This document shows positions 22,601-64,000 of a DNA stretch of 64,000 bases, piece after piece. The stretch lies in the NCBI GenBank assembly GCA_029204225.1, contig CM055094.1:17472402-17536401 (forward strand), given 5' to 3'. Source of the stretch: Diphasiastrum complanatum. Taxonomy: Eukaryota > Streptophyta > Lycopodiopsida > Lycopodiales > Lycopodiaceae. Position 1 is the stretch's first letter. Each line of letters begins with the position of its first letter. Under the pieces are notes generated by a model. That model searched no databases and had not been told where the DNA came from. It worked only from the letters and a program-made list of their open reading frames with translations. The position numbers were made by a program, and so were the translations under genes.

Positions 22601-25600
22601 CATTGTTTTTCAAACTTTTTTTATCGCTGTTTTTTCTTAGATCTGTGGTTCATTTTCCAGCCAGCCAGTAGAAAAAATTTGTGGCACACTAGGTGTATTT
22701 AGCTGCCTCTGTGAGCAGGCTTCCATTTTTTTCAACGCTGGAAATTAGTGGGGTGTTGGATTTTCTTCAAAGGCTTGGATTGTAGGAAAGCAAGAGTCAA
22801 GTCACCAAGATCTAGTTATCAATCAATCTCCACAAGAAACAAGAGAGAAGAGGCTGGGCGCCCAACTCTAAGAGAGAGAGAGAGAGAGAGAGGCAAAACA
22901 GCAACAAGAGCAATGCTTAGCCAAACTGAAAAATGTGACACAATAAGTCAATATGTACTCTACCTACTTACCGACTGTAGGGCAACCCCAAAAGTCAAGA
23001 TAAGGCCCCTAAACCAAATTAGACCCCTAAGGACCCATGAGTCAGTATATGACCAAAATTGGGTCCAACTGAACTTAAGACAAACTTAAGATGGCCTAAA
23101 TAACTAAATACCCATGGTTACACAAATCTCGACCTTTTGGGTCAAAGTAACCTATGGATTAACTTCAGCATAGTCATTTATTTCTAACACCCTCCTTAAA
23201 TGACAATGCAAAAAAACTGAAATCTTCACTCTCCTCCATTTCCCAAAGCGCCTTATTACTCTCTCCCCATGTAATAAAACCACCACCTTGACTACTTAAT
23301 TTCAGGCCTGTCTCCATAGGTGTAGCAACTGGCTTGCAATCTTCCATCTTCAACCGCTTCAAAATCTGCCCAATGTAGCGTTCTTGAGAGATGAAAATTC
23401 CAGCCCCTTCTTGTACAAATTCAAGACCAAGATAAAAGTGCAATAGGCCTGAATTTGAGGTTTCAAAAACCATACCAAGATCAAGTATTACGGCATAAAT
23501 CTATTGCTCATTACTTCCCGTAATAATAATATCATCAACATAAAGCAAAATAATGATGATATAATCTGAAGTATGCTTGATTAGCTAGGACTATTAGTAA
23601 ACCCACGATCACAAAAGTAGGCATGTATCTTTTGATACCACATCCTCGAGACTTGCTTCAGTCCATAAAGTGCCTTCTTGAGAAGACAAACTTTATCTTC
23701 TTGGCCTTCAACCAAAAAACCATCAGATTGTTGAAGGTACACTTCCTCATTGAGATCACCATTAAGGAATGTTGTCTTTATGTCAAGTTGCCGCAAACGC
23801 CAACCAAAATGGGCGGCCAAAGAGGTTACTACCCTCACGGTAGTCATCCGAACAGTAGGAGAAAAAGTCTTCTCATAATCAATTCCCTTTTGCTGAGCAT
23901 AGCCTTTGGCAACAAGCCTTGCCTTGTACCTTTCAATGGTACCATCTGCCTTATACTTGTTTTTGTATACCCATTTAGAACCAATTGCCTTCTTCCCATG
24001 AGGAAGATCAACAAGAACCCAAATCTGGTTCTACATGAGTGAGTCATACTCATCTTGCATCGCATCCTCCCAACATTTTACTCCCTTGGCCTGCTCATAG
24101 AAAACAGGTTCTTCCGCAACATCTCCATGAGATGTAAGAGCAAAATCTGAAAAATCAGCATAGTCCACTGATTTTGTAGAGGCACGTGTCTTTCCATCAT
24201 AGAATAAACTTACTTTGTTGTCCCGCAAAGTCGACAACAGCCACCGTGGGACTGTTTTGGGCTGTCCAACAGCCATGTCTCTTCTTGCAATTTGCTGTCC
24301 AAGATCTTCCGACATTGCACTTGGCTGTCCAAGATCTTCCAAAACTGATCTTTGTTGTCCAACAGTTCCTGCAAGCTGATTATGAGCAACAATGGGTGGC
24401 TCTTGATGAACATTAGGCTCTAAACTTGATGAGGTGTTGGGCAGTTCGAAACTGGTTGATTGCTGCCCCTTATCTCCAGCAATAGAAGATGATACCTAAT
24501 CTGGAAAAACTTCAGCATTCACACTATGTGGGTTGTCCCCCTTCAAGATGTGAGTTGGGGCCACATCTAATGAATTCTTTTCATCAAAATGCACATCACG
24601 ACTAACAATAATCTTGTTAGTGCTCAAATTGAACAGCCTATAGCCTTTGCTTTCACTACTATAGCCAACAAAAATGCATTTAACTCCTTTATCCTCAAGC
24701 TTTGTACGAAGTTTATCCGAAACAAAAGCATAAGCCGTACAACCAAAAATGCGAAAGTGAGAGATTGAAGGCTTCTTCCCATACCAAAATTCATAAGGAG
24801 TTAATGCTTTCAATGCTTTAGTACGACAACGATTATGTATGCTGCCAATATAACCGCTTCAGCCCAAAACTTGTGAGGCAGCCCCTTTGGTTTGCGCATG
24901 CAACGGGCCATCTCCATAAGTGTGCGATTCTTTCGCTCGGCAACACCATTTTGTTGAGGCGTATAGTCATTTGATGTAGAATTCCCTTCTCTCGAAGAAA
25001 TCTCATCAATATTGAGAAGCTCCTCACGACGATCCTTGATCTTCATCAAGTGATTGGTCACTTGATCCCCTTCTTGCATCTTCAACAAAGAAAGCTGATT
25101 TCTGAGATACACCACTCTTGCTGGTACGCATCATGGGAGAGAAATTGGTGGAACACAATTGGATCTTCTCTAGAGATAGTATGGCAAGTACAAAGCTTTC
25201 TCCAAGCTTGGATTGCGTGACTTCATGGGATTAATGCCATATTTAATGAAATTGGGCAATGTATATGGTTTTGAGGACCCACGGAGCATTTTCTAACTTT
25301 TGGTCCATGTACTGAAGTTTGGAGGGGCCCAACTCATAATGGGGGGTCCATGGGGCAAGTGACCTTCTTCTCCAATTAGCACTTGGCTGTCCAATGCCAA
25401 GGCTTTTCATTTGCTTTTGTAACTCCTATGTAACACATGGCTCTTGGCTTTTGGATATTCCACATTGGAAACCATTGGCCTTTGGAGTTCTCTATCTCTA
25501 CTAATATAAATAGGCACCCTCAGAGGTGAGGAAGAGAATGAAGAGGCTGGAGAGACTAAAGAGAGTGGCAATGCTTATGTACATACATTCTTTGTATAGA

Positions 25601-47882: not shown

Positions 47883-47897
47883 TTTTCAGCAACTAAT

Positions 47898-48661
47898 GAA
47901 AAAATATCAAAATGTGCAAATTGTGCAAATTCAAAATTCCATTAAAATTCTAGAAATGAACTGATAGAAATCTCTCGAATGATTTGTGAACAATTTTGCG
48001 AAACTGCTAAATCACGAATAATTTCTGCTCAAGAACAATTCGTGATCCAATCAAGCTCTGCAACGAAACAAAATGAAATGAAACAAAGCGAAACTAGACA
48101 AAAGAGAATAATTCACAAAAAGATCAATCAGGCTCTATAACAAGACAAGACAAGATAAAATGAAATGAAACTATACAAAACGAAGCAAAACGAAACGAAA
48201 CTTAAGTGAGCTTTGAAATTGATTTACGCTTATAGCCAAGTGATCGCGAAGTGAAACGAAGCGAAACACGAAGTGAAAACATTCGTGAATAAAATCAGCT
48301 CCTGTGGAATTCAGATATGATTGGTAGTCACTGCTAGCTATATCATTCTTACAGTCCTCCAGAATGTAGACAGACACTGCTGATCTACGTTATTATTATA
48401 GCAATCAACAAAATCAAACCAATATGCGGAATTGAATAAACAAGTGAATCAGATACACAAATAATAGCAGACAAAAATTCATTTGAGATCATATAATCAT
48501 TCAAAATAATATGTGCATACAGCTACAATATTATCAATTGATCTTCTGATTTTTCAAGCACTGTGCGACGGACCACACAGTGCATTGGCGTGAGAGAAAT
48601 ACAGTTCTCTCACGAATAATGTCTCGCTTACTAGCGGACTTCTAGATCTGTTGATCCAACA
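47898..48661 (-). repeat. Copia-8 3' LTR (764 bp)
   Basis: Reads TGTTGGATCAAC... on the minus strand from 48661, ending ...ATATTTTTTCA at 47898. 47898-48588 aligns with 62994-63676. Many GAAAC/GCGAA words give it a simple-sequence look near 48060-48260. Confidence 0.75.
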
Positions 48662-49399
48662 TATAAGCACAATCTTATTTGAATAGTGAAATTAAGTCTC
48701 AAATGAAAATAACAAAACTTTTATTTAAGAAATGACATTCTTGATGCTTACATTGCAAACCTTAAACAAGGCCTTGTGCACATCTACTTGTTGCCAATTG
48801 GAGTAAAATATCAGTACTATTCTACAAAGTGGAGCCATAATGACCTCCAAGAAACCTATAACTACATCCATGACCTTTGTGTATTTGAAGGATCTCTCGT
48901 CATTCAAAAAGTGAACCCGTAAGGAATGTCCGCCATACAAAGGGTGTAACATGTCTCTTTAACAAATTGGTGACCTCCTTTACATCGCATGGTTGAACAA
49001 TGTAGTGGCATGGTTGCTCATCAACATATTTGGAAATGTAAGTTTCATTTGGATCATCTTCAACAACAATGCCTCCACTTTATTCAAATCTATGCTACCT
49101 CTTCACAAAATTGTCTCGCTCACAGGCGGACATGTGTTCTGTATATTTTCATCTTTTTCGTATTATGCATCAAGCAGAAAGTATGTAGTTCGCGAACTTT
49201 TTCGTGTCGCATCATGTAACTTCCAGATTAGAAAGATTAAACATCTACAACTAATCGCGAATTACCGTGAGTGGCAGATTAGCCATGATCTAGAGTACTG
49301 CTGTTGATGTCATGGTATCTGATCAAATGCTTGTACCCCTTGGTACTTGGCTAATCTTCTTGGTCGTTTGTGGAGTAAGAATGATTTTGAGTCGTGAAA

Positions 49400-49717
49400 C
49401 AATTTCGTGTCATGTGTCGCAAAATTGTTCGCAAACAATTTTGTTTCTTGTGTCTTTTATGTCAAAATCAGAGTGGAGAGCTAGCAAGGCTTTGGCAATA
49501 GAAACATTTTGTTTCTTCAGCTCCCTCTCAAAGCATGATAGCTTGACGACTCCAAGACTGCTCCTCTGTTTCTCGAATAGACCTTTGTCTAAGGCCTTTG
49601 TGAAAATGTCAACTACCATCTCCTTCATTCCAATGAAGGTAGTCTGCAACATCTTCTTCCCAATCAGATCCCTTATCAAGTGGTACTTGATTGCAATGTG
49701 TTTTGTCCTTGAGTGAA
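49400..49717 (-). pseudogene. Copia-8 RNase H C-terminus
   Basis: HSRTKHIAIKYHLIRDLIGK, then KMLQTTFIGMKEMVVDIFTK and ALDKGLFEKQRSSLG are the last blocks of Copia RNase H, followed by an unusual extension to a stop at 49410. About 740 bp without coding lie between it and the LTR. It continues, across the 9-kb insertion, the RNase H that stops at about 58750. Confidence 0.88.
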
Positions 49718-49724
49718 ACCATTA

Positions 49725-50221
49725 GAGGAGTTCTCAATATCAAAAATACCCTTTAAGGAATGCCATGTAGGATATAGAAAAATATCAAAAAAAAAAAACA
49801 ATATTGTTTATTTGCTTGCCCACACCACTCCCAAGGCCTCTCCAACTCCCAATGATCTAAACACAGTGTCTATAGTCACAGTTAAAAACTGTTAACAGTT
49901 TGCTAAAAATAACTTACTAAACTCAAAAATATTCCCTCCATTGATTACGAAAAGGGCAATATTTTCAATAGATCTAGAATATGACCGCCATCCCCAAATT
50001 CGAATCAGAAAAAATTGCAAAATGTTTACATATGCATTCCTTCCACGAGAATGGAAATATGGGTGCCATCTCCAATTATGAACGCCATCATCACTTTGGA
50101 ATGGAAATATGAGCACCAACTACCTATTGGAATGAAAAAATGGGTGGCATTTCCAAATTTGAATCAAACATACAAGCATGGAGTTTGGATTGATCGTACA
50201 TAGTATATAATATAATCAAAG
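49725..50221. promoter_or_regulatory. Left end of the transposon and presumed promoter of the transposase-like gene
   Basis: No coding. The words GGAATGGAAATATG and GGGTGCCAT/GAGCACCAA recur three times between 50040 and 50140. TATATAATATAA at 50204-50216 is a possible TATA box just before the ATG at 50222. Confidence 0.4.
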
Positions 50222-52944
50222 ATGAGTGCTTTGCTTTGCTTCATAGAATCTGGTCATAGTACTTTGATGCAACTGATTACTCTATTATTTTTTTTGATGA
50301 TGACATTGTATCATCTACATGTGGATATCCCTATTGATTTGGCACCTTTGCAGAGAAGAGGAGGCAAAGGAATTCAAATATCTGCTGAGGATCGTTCTCG
50401 TTACAAGGCAGAAGGAAAAAAAAACTTGGATTTGTGGATAGATGGAACATTATATCCACAAGATCCAAGCACTTTGACACATCCCACGTTCTCTTCAATA
50501 ACTAATTTAGTTACATGGATATGCAATGGACATAGTGGATTACTAGGATATTGTGAAAGATTGCAGAACCATGGAAAACAACTTTATATGAATAAAGTTC
50601 ACTTTTTAGAAGGTGAGTTATTTCGGATATCTTCTTATTGTCAGAATAGAGATTGTCATCTCCAAAAGACATTAGAAGAAAAGGAACAACTTAAAAAAAA
50701 TAATGAATCATTACAGAAGATAACAATCAATATCAAATCAGAACTAGAGCAAATGCAATCACTCTTACAGTCTATTCGTATTGAAAACTTACAATTATTG
50801 AAGGATGTGGATTTGGCAAAGAAGAAGGCTGAAAGTAAGAAGCGAAAGCGAAGAACTTGCAAGGATATTCAAACGTTTTCAAAAGGAGGTTATCGAAATA
50901 GAAGGATCTGTGCATTCAAGTAAGCATATTCAGATTTTTGTAAGTTTTTCAATGACATTTGATTTTAATTTCAGCTATGGTGATATTCTGTTAACTATCT
51001 GTTTTTTTGTAGATTTGCATTAGTAGCTCCTCGGAATATTAAAGACAATGCTTCACTAGGAATGTCATTGGGCACAATATTGACTTGCAAATCCACTGAG
51101 CGTATCATGATGAACAATAGGATTTCAAATGTAAAGTGTAAAATAGTAGTCTTTGATGGTGGACATTCAAAAAATTTTAGATAAGACTATAGTTCAGGGT
51201 GCTTGTGATTTTGCGAGTATTAGCAGGGAAGCATATGCAACAATATTTAAACTAATTAGAGAAGCTTTTAATCAAGTTCAAATTAGAAAAGTCCCAATCT
51301 CTAGGACATATCACTTGAAGAAAGAGAGAGATACATTAAACATAGGTATGCATAAGATCATTGTAACTCCATTTCATATTGAGGAGGTGTATGAAACTGA
51401 TGGAAGATCGATATTCTATAATTCATCAAACAATTTATTTGTTGATCTAAATTACTTGTTGAGATACATCGTCACATTCTATGATATAACCTATAAAAAG
51501 GTGAATGGAAAAATAATCATAGTACTTAAGTTAGATGAGTCAAAAATTGTGAAAGGACAGAAGATGGAGAAGGTTAGTATAACTCTCATGAATGGTGCTC
51601 TATCACAAACAGAAAACCAAGAAGATTTCAGATTCAGTGTCCAGTCAGAAAATGATATATGGTGGTTGGCAGCATTTCAGGTTAACTAGCCTAATTATTA
51701 CATTACATTCATTGAATAGTATTAATACATTGTAAATTAAGTCTGATTAATTTTTTTGGACAGGTGCTAAAAGAGGATCATGATATATTATCATGGATAT
51801 TCTCAAGGACATCTTATCCTATGATCATCAAGGACCATATGGATGGAGGACTTCTCAACGTTCCAGGAGTTGGAGACTTCAATGTTGAATGGCACTTAGC
51901 AGGTGATTTGAAAACATTAAAATGTATGTATAATGTCTCTCACGGTGCTACATCAAAACACCCTTGTTTGTACTGTATGAAAATGACAAAAGATGTAACT
52001 AGGAGCACAGCAATTACTAGAGAATATGCATATCCAAACTGGAAGCCTGTGCTGCCTATCCTCTTAAAAAATGTGCATGTTTGCACTCTTCATGCAAAAG
52101 TTAGATTAATAGAAAAGATCATTTATCTTCATATAGTTTTTGCTTGGAATACTAAGCCAACATCATTAGCAAAGGAAGCTATCTCTCGATTAGAAGATGT
52201 TTTATCAAAAGCAAGACTCCATAAAGGACATGTCAAAATTCAAAAAGATGAAAAGCTTTCAGGAAAGAATGGGAACATGTCAACTAAGCCAAGCATAGGA
52301 GGAGCAAAAGCACGTCGTTTCTTATCAAATCATATTGGTAGGGCTTCTAATATTCAACACTCAGTCTAGACATATATCATTGCTGCTACTCAGGACTTCG
52401 AGAAAGACGGCAAAACCAAAGTACTAAAAGTTGATGTATGGAAAAAGCTTGATAGTATGATTGTTATTTTAAGAAAAGAAAAATACTCTGATATTGATAA
52501 AAAAGCTGTCCAAAGGACTTGTGTCGAGTTTATTAATGCAGTATCAAAAGCATGGGGAGATGATCACGTCACTCATTACATGGTTAGTATTGAATTCTTA
52601 AAATGCTTTCAGATTTTCATATATATTTAGATCCAAACATAAGACTAACATTATGATTTTGACATATGCAGCACATACTAAGAGATCATACAACATTTTT
52701 TGCAAATACATATGAAAGCTTGAGTGTATGGTCGTCGCAAGGGATGGAGAAGTCACACTGGCAAGCACGAGCAACACTTCATCGAAATACACAACATGGA
52801 GGAACCAATGAAAAACGAAACTACATTTGTCAATTGTTTCAGTGGTTCTACGACAGAGTTCAAATTCGACATATAACAAAGTCCACACAATACAACAAGT
52901 TTAAAAAAGCAGGTAAGTTCATACATGAAGAGAAAATTAGATGA
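50222..52944 (+). pseudogene. Transposase-like protein, four exons, one frameshift and one stop
   Basis: Exons with GT-AG ends and fitting phases: 50222-50919, 51013-51680, 51764-52582, 52672-52944 (about 819 codons). Exon 1 has a coiled-coil-prone segment (LQKTLEEKEQLKKNNESLQK) and a basic end (KKKAESKKRKRR). Later parts hold possible catalytic blocks: LKLDES (about 51528-51545), HLAGDLK (51893-51913) followed by SKHPCLYCM with CxxC (51955-51978), then HAKVRLIEK and GMEKSHWQA (52741-52767). This D, GDxK, CxxC, E order recalls an unnamed DDE family of lower animals and fungi that I know only by pattern. Lesions: one extra or missing base near 51150 and TAG at 52367-52369 inside an otherwise open exon. 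The start at 50222 is uncertain; TTTGCAG at 50346-50352 could be a splice acceptor. Confidence 0.65.
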
Positions 52945-53078
52945 TTGTTGAGTACAAGATCATCATTATCATCAAATCATGACATGTTCAGAATTGCTTT
53001 GCAAATTCATTGAACAAGAAAGGAGAAATACTCCATGTAAATGTATTGATTGTATTATATGAACATACAAAGTGTCAA

Positions 53079-54578
53079 CTATCCATCATCAGATCTTGTG
53101 TCAGATTCTATGGCGGTATTGTCATGAAGAAATTCTCTGCTAGCGTATGCATCTAATAGATGTGCATTATTCTTATTTCCACTAAGCTCAATATAAGTGG
53201 AATACAATGAATAATGGGAGCTCCTTAAAGGAACATTCCCATCAGTAATGCCTAAAAAGTTCAAAACATAAGATCTTTTGACAAAAATGATCTTATTTCT
53301 CTTTACAAATTTATGTCCTCCTAGGTAAAATGATAAAGCTTTAACTGCCATTACAAGAGTCTCCCCGACTGGGCTCAGCTTGGAATGAGCAATACAGATC
53401 TCATTCTTTAGGAAATGCCTAAGATAGTGGCCAAGTCCACTATCCCTCTGGAAAGACGATGTGTGTTGTCTGAAACCACCTCGTCTCGCAGCAAAATCAT
53501 CTATTATGAGAGCATCCTACAATAGGAAATTTGTTAGCAAAAACACATTCAATGATTAGAAATATCGTAATGCAAAAAAGTTTAAGCACTTACACATTCT
53601 TCATCATCAACAGTAACCAGATCATGATGATCAATATAATGACCACGTACTGAACTGGAATCATCCGTGAAATGCAATAATGATGGACGAGGGAAGCCCA
53701 TCTGGGATTGAAATGCCGTGAATTCTTCATCGAATGGTTTGCCTCGCCCATCCTTAGCTATATTTGATAAAGTCTTAGTCAAGCATTCTTCACTAGTCAT
53801 AATTCTTTCCTCATCATCAAAATCAATACCAGCAACAAGATCATCTGTTTCAAAATCTACGAAGTCGGAGAATTCAAAAATTGTGTCAGATAATAAACAT
53901 AGAACCTCGTCTTCACGATAGTCAAAAAATTTACATAAATCAACATAGAATATACATCGTCATTAATATAATATACAAGCAAATTGAATATACATTTAGA
54001 ATCCTCTGTAGGGTTGGATTCATCAGCAGATGTATTTGGGCCAATAAAAGAATCCCGTAGAGAATCAGTATTTATATTTATGAAGTCACTTTCTTTATCA
54101 GGAGTGTCGATAAGAAAGTAACTGATGTCCTTAATAGCTGATTGAACGGAGGATGATAAAAAGGGAGGGTCAACAACAGAAATTTCATCATCATCTGGGA
54201 TCTGAACTAACAGGAAAAGTAAGAAACCATTCTGATATTCAACCAATCGACATTTCTTGTTGCAATAAGGATGCAGTGAACTGCTTTTGAAAAGATCAAA
54301 CAATTTGGTGAACATTCTATCTAGTCTATGTCTGAAAGTTGAGAAGAAGTGAACTTGATCAGTATAATGCATGTACTGGAGTGAACAGGCTTACTAAGTA
54401 TATCTCTGAATCTAACATAATGTTGATAAAAAATGTCAGAATTTGGTTGTGCAGTCCTAAAAACATGTAGATATGGCCTGAATAGGCTATGGAAGTAGTC
54501 CAGATTTTCAGGATTCCCAAATTCACTAAGAAATGAACTCAAATCTGAATCTTGTGAGGACCCTGAGGAAGAGGCCAT
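53079..54578 (-). CDS. Unrecognised acidic protein of the transposon, four exons
   Basis: I do not recognise a family. The ATG at 54578 starts MASSSGSSQDSDLSSFLSEF. Exon 1 ends at a GTAAGC donor near 54395. Exon 2 runs from about 54331 to 54002 (MFTKLFDLFKSSSLHPYCNK, IPDDDEISVVDPPFLSSS). Exon 3 (about 53910-53594) is acidic: FEFSDFVDFETDDLVAGIDF, then TSEECLTKTL and GHYIDHHDLVTVDDEEC. Exon 4 (53516-53079) is clear: GTAAGT donor, TTGTAG acceptor, phase 0, reading DALIIDDFAARRGGFRQHTS, LGHYLRHFLKNEI, KALSFYLGGHKFVKRNKIIF to a stop. Exon borders 1/2 and 2/3 do not agree in phase by my reading. It is convergent with the transposase-like gene (135 bp apart) and shares a divergent promoter with the histone-fold gene. 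Confidence 0.6.
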
Positions 54579-55411
54579 CGAAATAAAGTGAATATCGCAC
54601 TTGTGCACGAGGGAGACGAGAAAGAAAACTAACTACCAAGATGGCACACAAGAGAGATATGTACGACGCAAGATACCGAATATCGCACTTGAGCACAAGT
54701 AGGTGTCGTTGAGTGCAAATGATCAACAAAGCGCGCGCACAAGATCGATATGTCGCGAATTTCAATAACGGAAAAAGGTAAAAAATTAATCGGTTTGCGT
54801 GCCATTTATACTAAATTTTCACACGTGTAGTCAACGGTCAATGGACACGTGTCTACTTTCGATTCGACTACAGCTACTGGCACTTGCGACGTGACACCTA
54901 GACACGTGTAAAATGACAACTGGACACATGTTGCGTGTTCATTCGCGTGCTCAAAAACACGTGTCGCTCTATCATTTGCTCGTACAAATCTCACATGTGT
55001 AAAGTGATAGCGTGACACGTGTCGCTCTGTCATTTGTTCGTACAACTCCCACACGTGTGATTGGACATTCTTTCGTACGTGCAAACCAGGATATAAAATC
55101 ACAAACTTCGATGAATTTTTTTCACTTTTTTTTTTCGCTTCGCATATCGCACTTGTGCGCGTCCTTCACACTCGAATTTCCACCCACCGTCTTTCATGCG
55201 CACAGGTCCGATACACCTACCTACGTGTCCCCCTGTATCACACTTGTGCGTGTTTCTTCAAAACTAATTTCTTTCTATTATATTCAGCTCGCATAGGTCC
55301 GATATACCGTACGTTCCTTCCGTACATATCGGTCCTCTACGAGATTTTTATCACCCTTCCATTCTCATTCTCCCCGTCGCGCGCAAGTCCGCTATTGCAT
55401 AGTACACATCC
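54579..55411. promoter_or_regulatory. Divergent promoter with ACACGTGT palindromes and ATATCGCACTTGTGC repeats
   Basis: The palindrome ACACGTGT (G-box core CACGTG) occurs at 54821, 54845, 54902, 54957, 55015 and 55051, with variants at 54924 (ACACATGT) and 54992 (CACATGTG). Two tandem 58-bp units start at 54957 and 55015. A second word, ATATCGCACTTGTGC, is at 54592, 54680 (one change), 55144 and, shortened, 55236. GGTCCGATA occurs at 55205 and 55294, and inverted near 55325. In plants CACGTG is bound by bHLH and bZIP factors; in a transposon such clusters can also be transposase-binding sites. Which applies is unknown. Confidence 0.7.
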
Positions 55412-57170
55412 ATGGATAGGAGAAAGCAAACCAGGAGGGACTTCTTCTCTCCTGGCTCATCCTTAGCCCCTGTGGTGGCCATTACCCATCCTGCTAGACA
55501 TAGAATGCGCAACCGCAGCAGGTGGCCCTCTGAGATAAGCAAGTACCAGACATCAACTGTGTTGTTGATCCCAAGGGCTCCATTCTACTGTGCTGTCCGA
55601 AACATAACAAGAAATGATCTCGGAGAGCTGGTCTAATTTACACCCAGTGCTCTTCAGTGCCTTCAGGAGGCTGCTGAAGACTACCTTAGTTTTTTTTTTG
55701 AAGATTCATTTTTGCTTGCCATTCATTTCAAGAGAGTCACAATAATGCCCAAGGATTTTCAGCTCCTGATGAGAATGAGGGTTAGGTTCCGTAGGTTGCA
55801 CGTATCTCAGCCTTCTGCTCCCAAGCCAACACCTGTAGATAGGACTGATCTTCCTACGGGGCATCCTAGAAAGCAGAGTGCCCCCAAGAGAGCTCCAAAG
55901 AAAGCAAAGATCGTAGACACCACAAATTCTGTGAAACCTGACCCAAAATCAATTGTAGATAACGATGTTGTTGATAATGCTGTAAATATAGCTACAGCTG
56001 TTTTGGATACCGCTTTAATTCCTGTAGATACTACACATCTACCTCCTCCTCCTCCTCCAAATTTTTATACATATATAGATTTGGATGAGTATCTTAGATT
56101 TGAGAAAGACATATCGGATGCTATGGATAAAATTGGTACTCCTTTTTGTTTTAGACTAGATGAACTTGATTTTAGTATTAACTTTAGAGTTTTAGATTGC
56201 TTGGATCTCAAAGACAGACGGACTTCTATCAGTGATCCTGTGATAGAGTCTGGGCTGACACTCTTGCAATTTGACATTGCAAGAGATTCATCCAACGAGT
56301 TGCTGGTGCTGAGTAACTTTTTGCTCCAGGCCTTCAAGGAGAATAATGACACATTGTCACAGTGTCTGACAAGTGGATTCACACCAGCAACAAAGTTTAT
56401 GGTCATTCCTTATCATACCAAGTAAGATATATTAAGTGCTTCTTCCTGTCTTATGCATTAACATTGACATTTTCAATTTAAATAGTTCTCAGAATTGTCG
56501 CTAAAGTACTTTCAATCTTATTTTGCAGTGACCACTGGAGTTTAAACTTGATCTCTATTAAGAGATTTGTAAATAATAGTATCAAAGGTTTTTGTGTCAA
56601 GATGAATTCGGCGAAAAATACGCATAAAAATGTAGATATATATTTGCCATATTTAAGTAAATATATTCCTACAGATGTTTCCCATTCCATGGACTGGGAG
56701 ATCGTGAGTTTGGAGGTAAACTCTATCGTTCTTAATAGCATGTTAAAATCAGTATTCTAATGTAATTGTTTCATTCTAATTCATTCTGTTTCATAACTGA
56801 TTTCCTTTGTGCTGAATTATTTTGCAGTCACCACAGCAAAATGATTCATTCAACTGTGGGTGGTACACGTTATACAATGTCAAGTTATTTTTTGAGTGGT
56901 TCAACCTTCAGGAAGATGTTGATATTTCTAAGGTAATAAATTTTGCTTATTCTTATTTTTGGAATCATGATTAATTTTCTATTTTGTTGATGTTTTTAGC
57001 CATTACTAATACATGAATGTTCTATTTTGCAGTTTACACTTCCTGAGTACACATCAAGCGAGGTGTACAGATTCAAACAAGAAATCATCCTGAGTATACT
57101 GGCTAGGGCAAGGCTTCAGCCTCCCTTTATTGATGATGGTGCAAAGGATGATGTAGTAGTACTAAATTAA
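55412..57170 (+). pseudogene. Histone H3-like histone fold fused to Ulp1/C48 protease domain (one in-frame stop)
   Basis: Exons 55412-56421, 56529-56715, 56828-56932, 57033-57170 (GT-AG, phases agree; 479 residues plus stop). Residues 1-9 (MDRRKQTRR) recall the H3 tail ARTKQTAR. Residues 38-125 align with the H3 core: EISKYQTSTVLLIPRAPF (helix N/1), [14 protein letters not shown] (helix 2), [19 protein letters not shown] (loop 2/helix 3). LLIP, VRx[10 protein letters not shown] and KDF are features of plant centromeric H3; KYQxST and VTIMPKD are canonical. A basic, proline-rich linker follows, then Ulp1: DHWSLNL (His339), Gln403 and Cys409 in SPQQNDSFNCG. The usual Asp seems replaced by Asn363 (MNSA), so activity is uncertain. 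Known Ulp1 enzymes cleave SUMO. TAA at 55634-55636 (codon 75, loop 1) is the only lesion; the same frame continues on both sides. Confidence 0.88.
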
Positions 57171-57365
57171 GATCAGAACATATATAGATAGCATAGAAAA
57201 AAAATACATGTATAGAATTCATAGAAAAATATACATTTATATATCAAATGCTGCTCCATTTTATGAATTTGGGAGCACAAAATAGATGTATTGATGCCCA
57301 ACTTGGGCTTTCATTTACTGAATGAAAGAGTGTAGACACAGATTTCTACTAAAGTTTATTTGAAA

Positions 57366-58734
57366 CTATTGTTCTCCCACAATGGTGATTGTTGTAGGTA
57401 GATCTTTGCAGCACGTTATCAGCTCCTGTCTTTTTCGCATCTGTGACATGACAAATATTAGTGAATGTACAATTGTAAATCATGACATTGTCTATTATTT
57501 TGTTCTATTTTGACATGGCAATAAACATAAAGTACTTACGAGTCTTCCGTTGATGATAAATCTGAAATATGTTGGTAGATTGGTTTGTAATAGCATGAGC
57601 TCTGTTTTGATAAAATCAAGCTTCCAATGTTCTTCCACCTCAACCATAGTCAAATATTTCTCATTGTAGATAATGCTTATCTCCATTCGGTTTGTGTGAC
57701 CATTTAGTTCAAAGTCTTGATCCAGTGGTAGCCATGTACCTTCAATTTTCTTGTATCTCTGGTAGCTAAATGTGAGACTGAGAATTTGCTTTTCGATATG
57801 ATAACAAAAGATCATTGAGGACTTTTTAATTCTGCATTCTATGTCATTATTTGTTTTACTATCCCAGCCTTGATCCATGAGATCTGATAAAGTCTCATAT
57901 GATAAATCCTTGCAAACAAATAAAGTTGGTGTCCTACAAACACTAGCACTCGAGAAAAAATCAACAAATGTAATGAGATAAACCAACTTAGGTAAACAAT
58001 TTTCGAGCCTGTGCTTATCTTCATAGCATTTCTAATATCAATTAGTAGCTTGCATCTGAAGGATTCAAAAACAATGCTGTCAAGAGTAGGCCACTCATCA
58101 CTTTGAAAACTAGGCAATGGAATTGCTTCGAGCTTGTCAAAACCTCCATCTGTTTGTGGCGTATATAAAGATTCATAAAAATAGATACCACAATCTGCAA
58201 GTTCCTTTGGACTTCTTCCTCTGTATTGCAGCTTTCCAACATCAGAGTGAATCACGTCTAATATTCCTGCAAGTAATTGTGCGGGCTCCCATTCACTTAT
58301 CATGATGGATATAAATCTGAAAGAAAAAAAATAATATTGAAGCATTTAAATCATAATCTGAAGAGCATCAATAAAGAAAATCATCTATGATTGTTGTAGA
58401 GTGCATATGTTTTGATATACTTACAATTACATTTTTTATGATCATGAGGATTGATATCATGTACTTTGATTTCTGAATGCATATATACATGTTGTACTAA
58501 GACTTCTGATATAGATTGACCTCCCGGGGTAGACTTAAACTCCAAAATTTTTGCTTTCCAATAAGATTTGTAAGTCATTTTTGCTCTTTTCTTTTGTCGA
58601 AAATTGCCCTTTGATGATGGATGCAGCAATACCCATGAGTTCTTCATGTATTTTGTTGGCTTCCAGTTATCAGCTTCATCTTTCTCATTGTAAAGAATCA
58701 CAGAATCGATTGTAGATCTGGGTCTCCTTGCCAT
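57366..58734 (-). CDS. Transposon protein with a possible BAH-like region, four exons
   Basis: ATG at 58734 (MARRPRSTIDSVILYNEKDE). Exons about 58734-58425, 58316-57998, 57935-57541, 57440-57366, ending ITIVGEQ and TAG. Exon 1 has SWVLLHPSSKGNF, then YWKAKILEFKS, VLVQHVYMHSEIKV; exon 2 has FISIMISEWEPAQLLAGILD. The spacing (opening block, AKIL, V-V--VYM, then LxSxxWEP...IxGxxxV) resembles a BAH domain, a chromatin reader of histone tails, but no diagnostic residue proves it. The exon 1/2 join does not fit in phase by my reading, so either a base is lost or a border is wrong. Exons 3 and 4 join cleanly. It is convergent with the histone-fold/Ulp1 gene (195 bp between stops). Its start lies only about 15 bp inside the insertion edge, so its promoter may be lost. 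Confidence 0.55.
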
Positions 58735-58749
58735 TGCTATTCTAATGAC

Positions 58750-59340
58750 ATGGTCTTTTGTCAACTGTATTGCAAATGTGTTGTCCATATGCAAAACTAG
58801 AGGTTCATTTCTCGTTTTGCCTAGTTTGTAAAGGAATTGTTTGAGCCAAATTATTTCGTTGGCCATCTTTGCTGCTGCAACGTACTCTACTTCGCAGGAT
58901 GACTGAGCCACAATGGTCTACTTCTTGCTGATCCAGAGAATTGCTGCTCCTAACGTGATGGTACATCCTCTTGAAACACTTTTGCAGTTGTCCTTGAGAG
59001 ATGCCCAGCTAGGACCACTGTAGGAAAGCATCTAAAACCCTGCATCACGAGAATAACATAAACCAAAATCTTTTGTTAATTGAAGATATTGCAAAATTTG
59101 TTTTACAATCTTCCAATGAGTCGATCCTGGACTTGTACAGAATTGGCTCATCCTGAACACGGCATAAGCAATGTCAAGACATGTGTTATCTACAAGGTAC
59201 ATCAACGATCCGATCAGCTTCATGTATGGTGTTAGCTGCATCAATTCCCTTTCTTCTTCAGTCCTTGAATAATTTTCGTTCGTCAGTATCGTTCCTGCAA
59301 ACATTGGAGTATTCGCTCCTTTGTAATAGCATCCCAAAAC
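58750..59340 (-). pseudogene. Copia-8 RT end and RNase H (first part)
   Basis: From the right: YMKLIGSLMYLVDNTCLDIA, FCTSPGSTHWKIVKQILQYL (59240-59070), then a gap with stops and QSSCEVEYVAAAKMANEIIW, LKQFLYKLGKTRNEPLVLHM, DNTFAIQLTKDH. The frame then passes without a stop into the start of the transposon gene at 58734, which is a chance fusion. Confidence 0.85.
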
Positions 59341-60070
59341 CTTCTAGGATTTTCTAGGTATATCTGGACTGATGAAGGTACAATTCACCTCCCTCATAGT
59401 CCTTGTCAATTTGTAAGCCAAGGTAACACCTGGCTTCTCCCATATTTGCAATCTCAAAATGTTTCGAGATATCATTCTTCACTTCAGCAATAAGCCTCTC
59501 ACTCTTGCAGAGTATCAGAGTGTCGTCCACATACACAACTACAATGATAATCTTCCCATCTATAATTCTTACATAGACATTGGATCAGCCAATAGTGGCT
59601 TGAATCCTAAAGAATTAAGGACTTGATCTTTCTTCTTCTACCATTGTCACTCTGACTGCTTCAGACCATATATACTCCGATGCATTCTGCATGCATAATT
59701 AGGAAGTGAATTCGAGACATAGCTTGGAAGTTGATCCATATAGACCTCTTCGTCTAGCTCACCATGCAAAAAGGCTGTTTTTTTGTACACAACGTGAATC
59801 CTGAAATCATAAGCAGCTGCATATGCAAATAGTAAACATAGGGACAAATGTTTCACGACAGGAGAGAAGGTCTCAAAATAGCCAATACCATATCTCTGAG
59901 AGAATCCCTTCTCTACAAGTCTTGCCTTATACTTAGAGACATCTCCATCCGGTCCATACTTCAGCTTGTATACCCATTTGTATTTTATAGTCTTTCGCTT
60001 ATCTGGTAATGGCTGCAACATCCATACCTGGTTCTTCCTCATGGATTTCATCTCCTCATTCATGGCCTGG
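59341..60070 (-). pseudogene. Copia-8 reverse transcriptase
   Basis: KNQVWMLQPLPDKRKTIKYK, WVYKLKYGPDGDVSKYKARL, YFETFSPVVKHLSL and GELDEEVYMDQLPSYVSN, then YGLKQSE with a stop where W is expected. The catalytic block MYVDDTLILCKSERLIAEVK is intact at 59536, followed by FEIANMGEARCYLGLQID. Two or three stops and a frameshift near 59640 break it. Confidence 0.88.
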
Positions 60071-60433
60071 ATCCATTTGTCCTTCTCTAGACATTCAGCT
60101 GCCTCCTCAAATGTCTGTGGTTCACCACTGAATCCACAGAATTTTTCTAACGTAGAAGCTGAGTTGCCTGGTACATATCTTGTTGGCGCTTTTCATTGTC
60201 TTGTTGACCTTCTAGGAGATCCTTCTGGAACTGCAATGTCTTTGCCTTTGTCTGCACTGCTAGGTCCGGAACCATTTCGGTTTACAGGTACTGTAGCAGT
60301 AGGTTGCCTCTCAAAACTTTTTTTGTCTGATTCGTCAGTCGAATGCAAAGTGACTCAAACATTTTTGTCTTCATGTTCGTCCTTTGCTCCCTCTGTCACA
60401 GTTGGAAGATCATAATACTGTCTTTCAAGATGC

Positions 60434-60557
60434 ATGATGGCCTATTCGAAGGCACCAAAAGTGATATGGGCTGAAGCAGTAGCTACAACCGCCTACATCC
60501 AGAACAGGATACGCAAATCAGGTGTAACTCACACGACACCACACGAACTATGGAACT
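60434..60557 (+). repeat. Inverted fragment of a Copia integrase C-terminus
   Basis: On the plus strand MAYSKAPKVIWAEAVATTAY and IQNRIRKSGVTHTTPHELWN are readable. This is the same stretch as the minus-strand MAYSKAPSVLWAEAVAEAAY at 60905-60790, about four fifths identical, so it comes from a different copy of the family and lies inverted in the connector of Copia-8. Confidence 0.8.
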
Positions 60558-60596
60558 GACAGGATCATCGTTGGCCATCGTTCTGCTCTCATCAAA

Positions 60597-61440
60597 TTAG
60601 ACATCTCTAACTATCTTCGTAGTGTTTGTCTCTGGCATATAGACTCTATAGTATGACAAATTGTTGTCATATCCTACAAGATATCCCTGTTCAGTTTTCT
60701 CATCAAGCTTCTTTTGAAGCTTATCAAGAACATGTGCATAAGCTGCATAGCCAAAGATACGGATTTGAATCAGATTGGATTTTCTACCCCACCACAATTC
60801 GTGTAGTGTCATGTGAGGAACACCAAACTTTCCTGTCCTGTTCTGAATATAGGCTGCTTCAGCTACTGCTTCAGCCCATAGCACACTTGGAGCTTTCGAG
60901 TAGGCCATCATGCATCTGGTAGCCTCCATTAGGGTCCTGTTCTTTCTTTCTGCAACACCGTTGTACTGCGGTGTGTAAGATATAGTCCTTCTATGAATGA
61001 TACTATGATCATTGTAGAAGTTAGCGAATCGATTTGAGATGTATTCTCCATCTCGATCTGTTTTGATCTACTTCACTTTATTACCAGTCCATCTCTCTGT
61101 CCAATTCACATACTCTATGAATTTGTCAAATGCTTCTGATTTGTTGTGAATAAAGTAGACTCTGGCAAATTTATTGTAATCATCAATAAAGATAATGTAA
61201 TATTTTGAGCCTCCTACTGAGATCACATTGAAAGGTCCATAGATGTTAGAACGCACTAACTCCAGAATCTTAGTCATTCTGTAGGAGTCCTTCACAAATG
61301 GAGTGCATGACGTTTTACCCTTCAGACATGCATCACAGGTCGTCGAACTGGTTGCATTTGAGATGCTCACCTCTGTGATTGCTCCATGATGGCTTGTTTG
61401 GTATAGTGCCATTGAATTCGTATGGCATAGTCTCCTGTGC
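60597..61440 (-). pseudogene. Copia-8 GAG-pre-integrase and integrase
   Basis: CDACLKGKTSCTPF gives the CxxC of the zinc domain; LVRSNIYGPFNVISVGGSKY, where the first catalytic Asp (HSD) is replaced by Asn; FIDDYNKFARVYFIHNKSEA; then, in another frame, DRDGEYISNRF near 61050 and the E block near 60945. The C-terminal part is MEATRCMMAYSKAPSVLWAE, GVPHMTLHELWWGRKSNL, FGYAAYAHVLDKL and TEQGYLVGYDNN. Confidence 0.85.
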
Positions 61441-62976
61441 TATAGAGTGTCTGGTGAATCATCGTGAGTCTGATGCACTTGATCTGCAGGCAAGCATACC
61501 TTTAGGTGATACAAATTGTCTTTTCTTCTGCCTTGAGTGATCAGGGTACTGGTACTTGCATCAACAACGTTGCATGCTTTGTCTGATAATGTCACACGCA
61601 TCCTTGCATCAGTTATTCTTGCCACTAATAGCAACTCCAACTATAGTGTAGGCACGAACAGAACATCTTTGAGTCGTCTGTCTCTGCCATTCGTGTTGAG
61701 CCACGGTGAATCAATACCATTCACTTGGTGTTTTGATCCATTTCCAAGAACGATAGATCTTGATGGATCTGCACTTCAAAAATCAAACATGATTTTTCTT
61801 GATGTAATGAAGTGTGAGGTAGCTCTTGAGTCTAGAATTACACCTGTGTGTCACATGTTGACATTGCACACATGTATGCACATTTGTAGGCGGTCAAATT
61901 ACCACGATTCAATCTTTCTTTGCCCATTTTTGAGCTCTCTAGCTCCTCGACATAGGACGAACTATTATTGTTCTCCTGTCTGCTTTGTGTTGATTTGTTT
62001 CTTGGGTTCAGGTGACAGTCCATGGCTGAACGACCTTTCTTGTGACAGTGGATACACTCAATTTTTGGATTGATCCAACACAAATCGACTGTATACCCTT
62101 CGTGTTTGCATCTCATGAAGGTCTTCTTGTCTCCACTCTGTTGTTTCGACCTTCATTTGTCTATACTGGTTTCTTCTACTTCCTGACCACGATCTTGCTT
62201 TTGATCTGACTCCCTCTTAGGCTTGAATTGTTTCTTTATCTTTTTCTTGTTGTTGTAAAGGGCTTGGTTAGAAGCATCTTTGTAATCAAGGTGCTCTCGA
62301 GCCTCGACTTCTTCTCAAATCTCGACAATTGCCTTTTTGAATTTCATTGTAGGATCCTTTGCTAGCAATGTTTTGGTTGTCTGGAAGGATCTTGATAAGG
62401 TTCTCAACAGATAAGTGAGCTGCTTCTCTGCTGACACTGCATTTTCTGCTCCAAAATTGTGTAGAGAAAGGAATATATCCTTCATCTTTCTAAGAAACAA
62501 AGTGAGGTCTTTGCCATCCCACTGCAGGTTTGTCAGCTGATCCTCAAGCATTATTATCTTACTGCGTGATTTCATCTAAAATCTTGTGAGTAGTGTGTCC
62601 CACATCTCTTTTGCTTTAGAGAGTGTAGCCAGGTCAAGATCCAGGCTATCCTCGATGGATGATGATAGCAAGGCTACTGCCTTGTCATTCTTCTCCCTCC
62701 ATTGCATAGCTTCTTGTCTATTGTTGTAGGCATCTCCTCAGTGCCATCTACCCAAGGAAATAATCCTTTTACCTTTAGTATCAGCGAGGTCTTTACCTTC
62801 CATGCTAGGAAGTTAGATCCTGATGAATCCAGAACTATACAGATCTTGGATTGTATGCTACTTATTGAAGCCATTGCTCCTGAATTTGTGTTATTCACTT
62901 GTTAATGATTCTTTGTTTGAATGCTTAGCCTCCTGGATCTGATAGTTTTTTGGGTATGTCAGATTATGACAAGGTA
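61441..62976 (-). pseudogene. Copia-8 gag and protease
   Basis: Gag starts near 62898 (MNNTNSGAMASISSIQSKIC, FLAWKVKTSLILKVKGLFPW). The middle is at 62575-62315 (LTNLQWDGKDLTLFLRKMKD, LTYLLRTLSRSFQTTKTLLA). The knuckle-like stretch near 62060 reads CIHCHKKGRSAMDC, CX2CX4HX4C with the histidine position changed to Arg. The protease near 61880-61640 is frameshifted. The primer site (62989-62977) immediately precedes the leader. Confidence 0.8.
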
Positions 62977-63862
62977 GGCTCTGATACCACTAATGGAAAA
63001 ATATCCGAACGTGCAAATTGTGCAAATTCAAAATTTCACTAAAATTCTGGAAATGGACTGATAGAAATCTCTCGAATGATTCATGAACAATTTTGCAAAA
63101 CTGTTCTGATCATGAATAATTTCTGCTCGAGAACAATTCGTGATCTAGTCAAGCTCTGCAATGAAATGAAACAAAGCAAAACTAGACGAAAGAGAAGAAT
63201 TCACGAAAAGATCAATCAGGCTCTGTAACAAGACGAGATGAGACGAAACAAAACTATACGAAATGAAACGAAACGAAACAAAACTTAAGTGAGTTCTGAA
63301 ATTGATTTACGCTTATAGCCAAGTGATCGTGAAACGAAACGAAATGAAACACGAAGCGAAAACATTTGCGAATAAAATCAGCTCCCGTGAAATTTAGATA
63401 TGATTGTTGGTCACTGCCGGCTATATCATTCCTACAATCCTCCAGCATGTAGACAGACACTGCTGATCTACGTTATAAATTATTATAGCAGTCAATAAAA
63501 TCAAATCAATGTGCGAAATTGAATAAACAAGTGAATCAGATACATGAATAGTAGCAGACAAAAATTCATTCAAGATCGTACAATCATTCAGAAGAATATG
63601 TGCATAACAACTACAATATTATCTGTTGATCTTCTGATTTTTCAAGCACTGTGCGACGGACCACATAGTGCATTGGTACCCCTTGGTACTTGGATGATCT
63701 TCTTGGTCATTCGTGGAGCAAGAATGATTATGTGTCGCGAAACAATTTCGTGTCGTGTGTCGTGAAATTGTTTGCAAATAATTTTGTTTCTTGTGTCTTT
63801 TCTGTCAAAATGAGTGGAAAGTTAGCAAGGCTTTGGCAATAAAAATATTTTGTTTCTTCAGC
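62977..63862 (-). repeat. Copia-8 primer site, 5' LTR part and RNase H end of a neighbouring copy
   Basis: TGGTATCAGAGCC (minus, 62989-62977). 62994-63676 aligns with the 3' LTR 47898-48588. At 63676/63677 the sequence jumps to what corresponds to 49334 in the other copy, losing about 745 bp (LTR start and 3' untranslated part). 63677-63862 then matches 49334-49510, the coding end of RNase H. Confidence 0.8.
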
Positions 63863-64000
63863 AGCCTCTATGCAACATCGAAATTATATATATCATAATC
63901 ATTCATGGTTTTGTATATGGTGCAATATTCAAAATGCTCCACCATATATAAAACCACGAATGACCTTAATTACATTTTATCTCACATGATCAAGACACGA
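63863..64000. repeat. Imperfect inverted repeat (hairpin, MITE-like) at 63900-63970
   Basis: ATTCATGGTTTTGTATATGG is answered about 20 bp later by CCATATATAAAACCACGAAT, complementary in roughly 18 of 20 positions. The flanking DNA to the window end has no gene. Confidence 0.6.

Follow-up and report, generated by a model that had tools for sequence, protein, structure and literature searches.

ULP1 regions are known in MULE and CACTA elements, as described in the sections available to us of an earlier survey (PMC2528002), and Arabidopsis Vandal elements that carry KIU, in which a Ulp1 domain lies in a VANC-type gene, induce hypomethylation of related elements (PMC13317346, from the available excerpts). 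Histones have been mobilised as well: in the available parts of one study, hAT elements of Dothideomycetes amplified a captured H3 to hundreds of copies (PMC6710886). The SUMO protease SENP6 is connected with CENP-A chromatin (PMC6726658, PMC6981222; both in excerpt). Here we describe a high-copy DNA transposon of the lycophyte Diphasiastrum complanatum with a gene in which a histone H3 fold and a Ulp1 domain are fused, found in a stretch of 64,000 nucleotides (assembly GCA_029204225.1, contig CM055094.1, positions 17,472,402 to 17,536,401 of the forward strand; hereafter the window), in which the copy is broken by a TAA. The original prediction, made from the letters of the window alone, proposed this pairing and knew of no described protein that has it; none of the open-licence PMC papers listed by our searches showed a histone-Ulp1 fusion either, and the presence of both domains in one transposon gene is borne out by profile matches, by the predicted fold, by the number of copies, by selection and by its recurrence in two divergent subfamilies.

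Reading of the exons (Table 1) upheld the predicted single frame with three clean introns, and the translation contains one in-frame stop, the TAA at 55634. This TAA is absent from all 35 other loci that were read, several of which have different stops, and exon 1 is open in the copies L005, L035, L036 and L039. Residues 28-123 match Histone PF00125 (E 1.3e-22, above the curated Pfam cut-off), and since the pieces before the stop (2.3e-6) and after it (7.9e-12) each match separately, the histone match does not depend on reading through the stop. The best 60 of 179 sequence matches in the PDB are all histones, H3 wherever named, headed by H3.3C (3.3e-19). A structure model of exon 1 has helices at residues 37-47, 55-73, 78-106 and 113-130, corresponding to alphaN, alpha1, alpha2 and a long alpha3; its predicted local distance difference test score (pLDDT) by block is 82-91 for residues 51-130 and 56-61 for residues 31-50, where alphaN lies, and beyond the H3 fold the model is of low quality, with a mean pLDDT of 55.9 for exon 1. 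In a Foldseek search with this model, the best 50 of 297 rows are chains of nucleosome structures (top E 8e-6). Profile search and structure prediction, the checks that had been proposed for the histone part, thus agree with the PDB matches on an H3-type fold with alphaN and alpha1-3.

The tail of the window copy, MDRRKQTRRDFF, keeps the ARTKQTARKS of H3 in part; Lys9 is lost. His113, Arg116, Val117, Thr118, Asp123, Leu126 and Arg129 of H3, which have roles in the H3-H3 bundle and in DNA contact, are conserved in L033, L067 and L066, copies of the window's own subfamily A and of two divergent subfamilies, B and C, respectively, and also in all eight aligned A copies. Arg69 and Arg72, DNA contacts of H3, are present in L033, L067 and L066 together with Arg83; Arg83 is kept in seven of the eight aligned A copies, being Lys in L005, and is the codon replaced by TAA in the window copy, which has Cys at position 69.

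The C-terminal half is recognised by the Peptidase_C48 profile PF02902 over the catalytic domain, as had been predicted (residues 326-437, E 7e-8; the score is 33 bits and the cut-off 20.7), and the Ulp1 structure 1euv is matched at E 4.4e-4. The original prediction also read His, Gln and Cys as in place; all three are present in the window (His339, Gln403, Cys409), but Asn363 occupies the position of the catalytic Asp, a placement that rests on a shared xS motif, the phmmer alignment putting a gap-shifted neighbour there. Over 30 copies (the spliced frame was extracted from 36 loci, and six rows, the window and duplicates, were dropped) the expected residue is found 26 times for His, 26 for Asn, 27 for Gln and 21 for Cys, several of the misses being copies with a rearranged 3' part. 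The Asn is old in the family, since the exons read from B and C share it, within an MNS motif. Because an Asn stands where the catalytic Asp is placed, we do not assume activity and call the domain C48-like; judged from its residues, protease activity is possible.

That the two domains belong to one gene is clear from the other copies of subfamily A. The genome (1.74 Gb, 5176 contigs) was searched with the window protein, and the 89 matches scored are the best of 14079 first-look candidates, a biased sample; the counts over them were made by eye and include the window's own match and some near-identical duplicates. In all 89 first-exon matches a single frame, if stops are disregarded, extends from no later than residue 32 to at least residue 310, at 72-100% identity. 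Two separate genes, which the original prediction had named as evidence that would speak against it, are ruled out, because each of the 89 matches is continuous, with no frame break between the H3 fold and Ulp1. Copies without the stop had also been proposed as a thing to look for, and 19 of the 89 scored first exons are stop-free, the other 70 containing stops. Four distinct copies (L005, L035, L036 and L039) have a full open frame and all six splice dinucleotides; the intact frames of L036 and L039 contain in-frame insertions or deletions, L005 is the same place as L034, and a further copy, L010, has no internal stops and lacks the final one.

Both halves of the protein are under selection. 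In 22 of the 30 copies, those with few insertions, the ratio of nonsynonymous to synonymous substitution rates (dN/dS) is 0.51 for the tail, 0.19 for the H3 fold, 0.70 for the linker, 0.34 for the N part of Ulp1 and 0.33 for the Ulp1 core. When the frame is shifted by one or two bases, the values become 0.85 and 1.15 for the H3 fold, 0.57 and 1.14 for the Ulp1 N part, 0.68 and 0.85 for the Ulp1 core, and 0.50 and 0.58 for the linker; from this comparison, constraint is tied to the reading frame in both domains but not in the linker. The four intact copies by themselves give ratios of 0.156 (H3 fold), 0.27 (Ulp1 N part), 0.30 (tail) and 0.55 (linker), and since dN/dS includes decay after insertion, the constraint while the element was active was probably stronger. 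A chance open reading frame (ORF) or a pseudogene is ruled out by this frame-specific constraint, with the linker as the exception: both domains are under purifying selection, and the fusion is not a chance join.

The same architecture recurs in more distant copies. With the fold of an Arabidopsis CENH3 as query, 150 of 5531 candidates were scored, of which 13 look like canonical H3 genes by score and identity (L051 was read) and the remaining 137 have diverged further, with 47-56% identity to the query; eight of the latter were fetched, two of which, L063 and L064, are described further below. Subfamily B comprises L065, L067, L068 and L070, and subfamily C comprises L066 and L069, for which a search scored 97 further matches out of 9525 candidates. 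L066 and L068 begin MARTKQTARL, from which the other four loci differ at one to three places, and in the first exons this start is followed by a CENH3-like fold containing VRWN, then by a basic linker and by the N part of Ulp1; these exons are intact in L065, L066 and L067 and interrupted by stops in L068, L069 and L070. Profiles from the window's subfamily were run against 613 sequences: the H3-fold profile matched five of the six B and C loci at 1.2e-24 to 8.3e-30 and L070, whose fold is split by a stop, in two pieces (6.2e-13 and 1.8e-10), the Ulp1 N-part profile matched five (not L069) at 1.3e-12 to 1.6e-10, and the profile of the catalytic exons matched all six at 1.1e-4 to 6.1e-9. Exon 1 appears to end just before an HW motif in all five of these loci where the place was seen, with a putative splice site there. 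Judged from these profile matches and motifs, the H3-Ulp1 order and the end of exon 1 are common to two divergent subfamilies, and the H3 folds of the three subfamilies are 43-56% identical to host H3.

Relatives were also sought more widely. A single-sequence protein search elsewhere gave no relative among 4156 candidates, and a profile search gave 40 matches of 4559 candidates, of which 13 were read and proved mostly to be ordinary H3 in longer predicted proteins; P0028, a tandem H3 of Actinidia, was set aside as no relative of the fusion. P0044, on a contig of 3375 bp, opens with MARTKQTMRK; its fold is CENH3-like, its loop 1 is long, and so is its C-terminal part, which contains IIILPYVER, possibly the strand that precedes an HW motif; a profile E of 0.067 makes this C-terminal part suggestive of Ulp1, short of an identification. 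Within the host genome, bases 1-930 of L064 (G000:C17:36125200-36128400) hold a proline-rich open frame of at least 310 amino acids with a C-terminal H3 fold (PF00125, 3.9e-29) and no Ulp1 after the fold in that frame, an architecture different from H3-Ulp1. A viral origin was considered and rejected: a scan of viral contigs with the part of exon 1 that follows the stop produced 32 pattern matches, none of them a relative.

Whether the histone part derives from centromeric or canonical H3 was approached with three plant CENH3 sequences, which served both for comparison and for trees. At the 22 positions where all three differ from H3, L033 has 8 CENH3-type residues, 5 H3-type and 9 of neither type; L067 has 8 CENH3-type and 6 H3-type, and L066 has 9 and 2. 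The original prediction that several positions follow centromeric H3 is supported in part: it agrees with the 8 CENH3-type sites of L033, and constrained trees reject neither placement (p-AU 0.124 when held with CENH3, 0.068 when held with H3). Overall, L033 is about equally close to both, with 56% identity to host H3 and 51-53% to CENH3. In the trees the transposon rows form a single group (84/88) that also takes in P0044 and L064, and a wider tree gives 88/63 for a split that puts the transposon rows, P0044 and P0063 on the plant-CENH3 side. Pro63, Ala65 and Leu89 in A, B and C, Trp84 in B and C, and Asp98 of the transposon protein, as in Arabidopsis CENH3, are likenesses to plant CENH3, as is a loop 1 longer than that of H3 in A and B, though not in C (by one residue in L033, counted by eye). 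In contrast, Pro121 in A is as in canonical H3, and the transposon protein differs from plant CENH3 in its C-terminal Ulp1 extension and its many dispersed copies. A host CENH3 was sought with the full Arabidopsis fold, and only H3 and more diverged copies were seen. On these residues and trees, the H3 part appears to lean towards CENH3, which falls short of proof.

The gene lies inside a DNA transposon that is itself nested in a copia retrotransposon, whose RNase H frame, on the minus strand, is interrupted from about 58745 to 49719, the transposon filling the gap. The copia element occupies 47892-63869 of the window on the minus strand, and its repeats resembling long terminal repeats, at 62989-63869 and 47892-49528, have pieces 82-94% identical. 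Full right terminal inverted repeats (TIRs) are retained in L034, L036 and L037; L035-L038 continue past the base matching 58741, and the right TIR of L036 lies 459 bp further on. L034 (G000:C3:29554400), a near-copy of the locus (98%), has both TIRs, 8009 bp apart, and its right part differs from that of the window copy and is shorter. The TIR is present at 9 of 11 distinct copies examined, at both ends in two (L034, and L038 with L040), and was not found in the fetched DNA of L035 and L039; a TIR search confined to the window gave nothing convincing. Genome-wide, allowing up to two mismatches, the TIR has 1047 + 1091 (2138) matches against 0 and 0 for the control, and exact copies of the 57-bp left end number 168 + 173, against 0 for the control.

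Table 1. Features of the transposon and of its H3-Ulp1 gene, in window coordinates.
Feature	Position	Strand	Remarks
DNA transposon, window copy	49720-58747	.	nested in copia; ~450 bp beside right end missing
Left TIR CATTAGAGGAGTTCTCAATATCAAA	49720-49744	+	25 bp
Transposase-like gene, broken	50216-52944	+	LDE ... GDLKTLKC ... CLYC ... HVCTLH motifs
Accessory ORF fragments	53079-54632	-	no Pfam family; part open over 355 aa in L038
H3-Ulp1 gene	55412-57170	+	four exons, 479 codons, every intron GT..AG
Exon 1	55412-56421	+	tail, H3 fold, basic linker, Ulp1 N part
Histone H3 fold, codons 38-123	55523-55780	+	PF00125, predicted helices, dN/dS
In-frame TAA, codon 75	55634-55636	+	matches Arg83 of H3
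Linker, codons 124-222	55781-56077	+	basic, proline-rich; weakly constrained
Ulp1 domain N part, codons 223-337	56078-56421	+	dN/dS 0.34; profile matches in subfamilies B and C
Exon 2	56529-56715	+	His339 (56533-56535); Asn363 (56605-56607) at catalytic Asp position
Exon 3	56828-56932	+	Gln403; nucleophile Cys409 (56855-56857)
Exon 4, C-terminus	57033-57170	+
Second accessory ORF	57495-58345	-	no Pfam family
Right TIR remnant CTAATG	58742-58747	-

The other genes of the element give it no place in a described superfamily. Fragments of the transposase-like ORF matched no Pfam family over the cut-off, 27 relatives were found for the matching transposase-like fragment of a divergent related element in L039, and a model of the relative P0025 (mean pLDDT 66) had no PDB match (best E 0.85). 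The element is not a KI-MULE or Vandal, having 25-bp TIRs, and a scan of its broken ORF fragments gave no match to a MULE transposase; nor a CACTA element, since its TIR starts CATTAG, the fragments scanned have no Tnp2 match and six insertions read have no constant target-site duplication (TSD); nor a hAT element with captured H3, as the fragments scanned show no hAT domain and the six insertions described below no 8-bp TSD. At L063 (G000:C7:53543400-53546600), a rearranged locus, the transposase-like frame runs into the H3-Ulp1 gene in one ORF of 412 codons. Elsewhere in the window, at 24385-24467, ARAGORN calls a tRNA-Pyl, most likely a false match in a plant genome.

Six insertions could be read at both ends: the event shared by the window and L034, L038 with L040, and four facing pairs of TIRs on C1 (L071-L078), which we assume to be single elements. 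They have no fixed target duplication, as the letters shared by their flanks differ (AC, none, none, T, none and TCA). Two insertions lie in copia coding frames, and by eye the copia frame continues over the junction if nothing is removed. The joined flanks of L073/L074 give an open frame of 46 codons, which is weak evidence because one frame of L071/L072 is likewise open. The 100 exact TIR places listed are all on C1 (101.6 Mb), 28 of them within 65.0-66.7 Mb, compared with at most 12 in any 2 Mb when places were simulated uniformly 1000 times; two 9-kb samples of this cluster contained no centromere-like satellite. The 100 exact 57-bp left ends listed are instead dispersed over C1-C7, with 11 on C1 and only 2 of these in the cluster, so that no concentration at centromeres emerges from them; groups among those listed, 5 on C3 (57.6-58.1 Mb) and 7 on C7 (53.3-54.5 Mb), may be local duplications.

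Selection on both halves suggests that the element acts by bringing an enzyme-like module into host chromatin. We propose, with a probability of roughly 45%, that the transposon encodes a chromatin protein, built as H3 variant, linker and Ulp1, which puts the Ulp1 module on chromatin against silencing. What has been observed is the gene itself, its location within the transposon, its abundance, the purifying selection on its two domains and the architecture common to two divergent subfamilies. The remainder is a model, in which a high-copy DNA transposon with TIRs would encode a transposase-like protein and a dedicated chromatin protein; the H3 fold of the latter would pair with host H4 and be taken up by histone chaperones, and the fused Ulp1 module, thereby held on chromatin, would remove or bind SUMO on silencing or centromere proteins, keeping the chromatin of the element permissive for expression and transposition. 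Through such chromatin-tethered deSUMOylation the element might counter silencing much as the VANC and KIU proteins of Arabidopsis Vandal elements do. Several observations weigh against this proposal. Arg69 is kept in only three of the eight aligned A copies, with Cys in four, including L005, and Arg72 in five, although decay of old copies may explain part of this variation; Arg63 of H3 is replaced by Pro, as in the three plant CENH3s. The His-Asp-Gln-Cys set is incomplete by the Asn described above, and Cys409 is lost in two of the four intact copies (Phe in L035, Tyr in L039). In four B copies constraint on the linker is of the same order as that on the domains (dN/dS 0.37, against 0.34 for the H3 fold and 0.31 for the Ulp1 N part) and the tail, at 1.01, is unconstrained, so that the contrast between linker and domains is not repeated in B. 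Finally, a histone with a fused domain may be too bulky for the nucleosome, and both the target and the direction of the effect on silencing are guesses on our part.

Other accounts of the same gene draw on much of this evidence. The variation of Arg69 and Arg72 in A copies, the replaced catalytic Asp and the Cys lost from two intact copies would all suit a decoy that captures H4 and the chaperones of H3 or CENH3 in the nucleoplasm, or poisons local nucleosome assembly, without serving as a nucleosome subunit, and with Ulp1 adding stability or SUMO binding; the helices and bundle residues that are conserved would be needed by a decoy too. A decoy would have no need of Arg116, kept in 8/8 aligned A copies, of Arg83, kept in 7/8, or of the Arg69, Arg72 and Arg83 found together in the B and C copies compared, and we hold this account to be rather unlikely. 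A bolder version of our proposal, in which the transposon makes nucleosomes of its own, with a CENH3-derived histone whose SUMO protease edits SUMO on the chromatin of the element or of the centromere, seems to us unlikely, and a little more so than the decoy. If it were true, it would mean escape from silencing or a hijack of centromere maintenance, and the protein would be, to our knowledge, the first histone variant of a mobile element with a fused enzyme.

The CENH3-type residues at 8-9 of 22 sites could instead mark an adaptor for target sites, in which the histone fold brings the integration complex to, for example, CENH3 chromatin and Ulp1 clears SUMO-bound factors where the element inserts; the absence of a constant target duplication hints at an unusual insertion mechanism, and the C1 cluster, with 28 of the 100 listed TIR places, would fit. 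The dispersal of the listed left ends over seven contigs, with 2 of 11 C1 ends in the cluster, and the lack of satellite in its two samples make such an adaptor improbable. We regard as slightly more improbable still a use internal to the element, by which the substrates that Ulp1 processes are proteins of the element itself or SUMO-like tags of its transposase, and the H3 fold serves only as a handle for dimerisation and DNA binding: the recurrence of Ulp1 in unrelated transposons (MULE and CACTA, and Ginger by word counts, in the excerpts available) suggests such a common use, but the H3-H3 bundle residues are kept beyond what a generic DNA-binding handle needs. Passive capture of functionless histone and protease fragments, which is in print for the fungal hAT elements with H3 (PMC6710886, from the available parts), would agree with the stops in 70/89 scored copies and with the broken copy of the window. 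It is refuted in the main by selection, in that the H3 fold has a dN/dS of 0.19 and the Ulp1 core one of 0.33, whereas their shifted frames give 0.68-1.15, and the fusion has been retained in three subfamilies whose H3 folds have diverged so far from host H3; we consider it very improbable.

If the proposed chromatin protein acts as we suggest, a selected, high-copy fusion of H3 to a protease-like domain would represent a novel route by which mobile elements influence chromatin, by becoming part of the nucleosome or meddling with it rather than by binding DNA or mimicking a regulator. It would offer a concrete, testable approach to two questions: why Ulp1 recurs among plant transposons that are not related, and how such elements overcome silencing or cope with the chromatin of centromeres.

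Set beside the described systems, the element shares single features with each. SENP6 is, in the parts of its literature available, a SUMO protease on centromeric chromatin and a host protein. It is not known to be fused to a histone or to reside in a transposon. KAONASHI/KIU of Arabidopsis Vandal elements is likewise an accessory protein of a plant DNA transposon with a Ulp1-type domain, and in the excerpts available it comes with a MULE transposase, without TIRs and without mention of a histone fold; in contrast, the H3-Ulp1 element has TIRs, a different transposase-like protein and an H3 fold in front of its Ulp1. The CACTA-ULP elements of grapevine and rice are also transposons with a ULP1 region (PMC2528002). 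They use a Tnp2 transposase, whereas the H3-Ulp1 element has TIRs starting CATTAG and a fused H3 fold. The H3 copies of the fungal hAT elements are mostly truncated and inactivated by repeat-induced point mutation, in elements with an 8-bp TSD and a hAT transposase, and the words "ulp1" and "sumo" are absent from the text of that paper available to us (PMC6710886); the H3 of the window's family, by comparison, has diverged, is kept by selection and forms one protein with a protease-like domain. Ulp1 accessory proteins of transposons and the capture of H3 in fungi are thus known, and the H3-Ulp1 architecture, which our searches found nowhere else, is what this lycophyte transposon adds to them.

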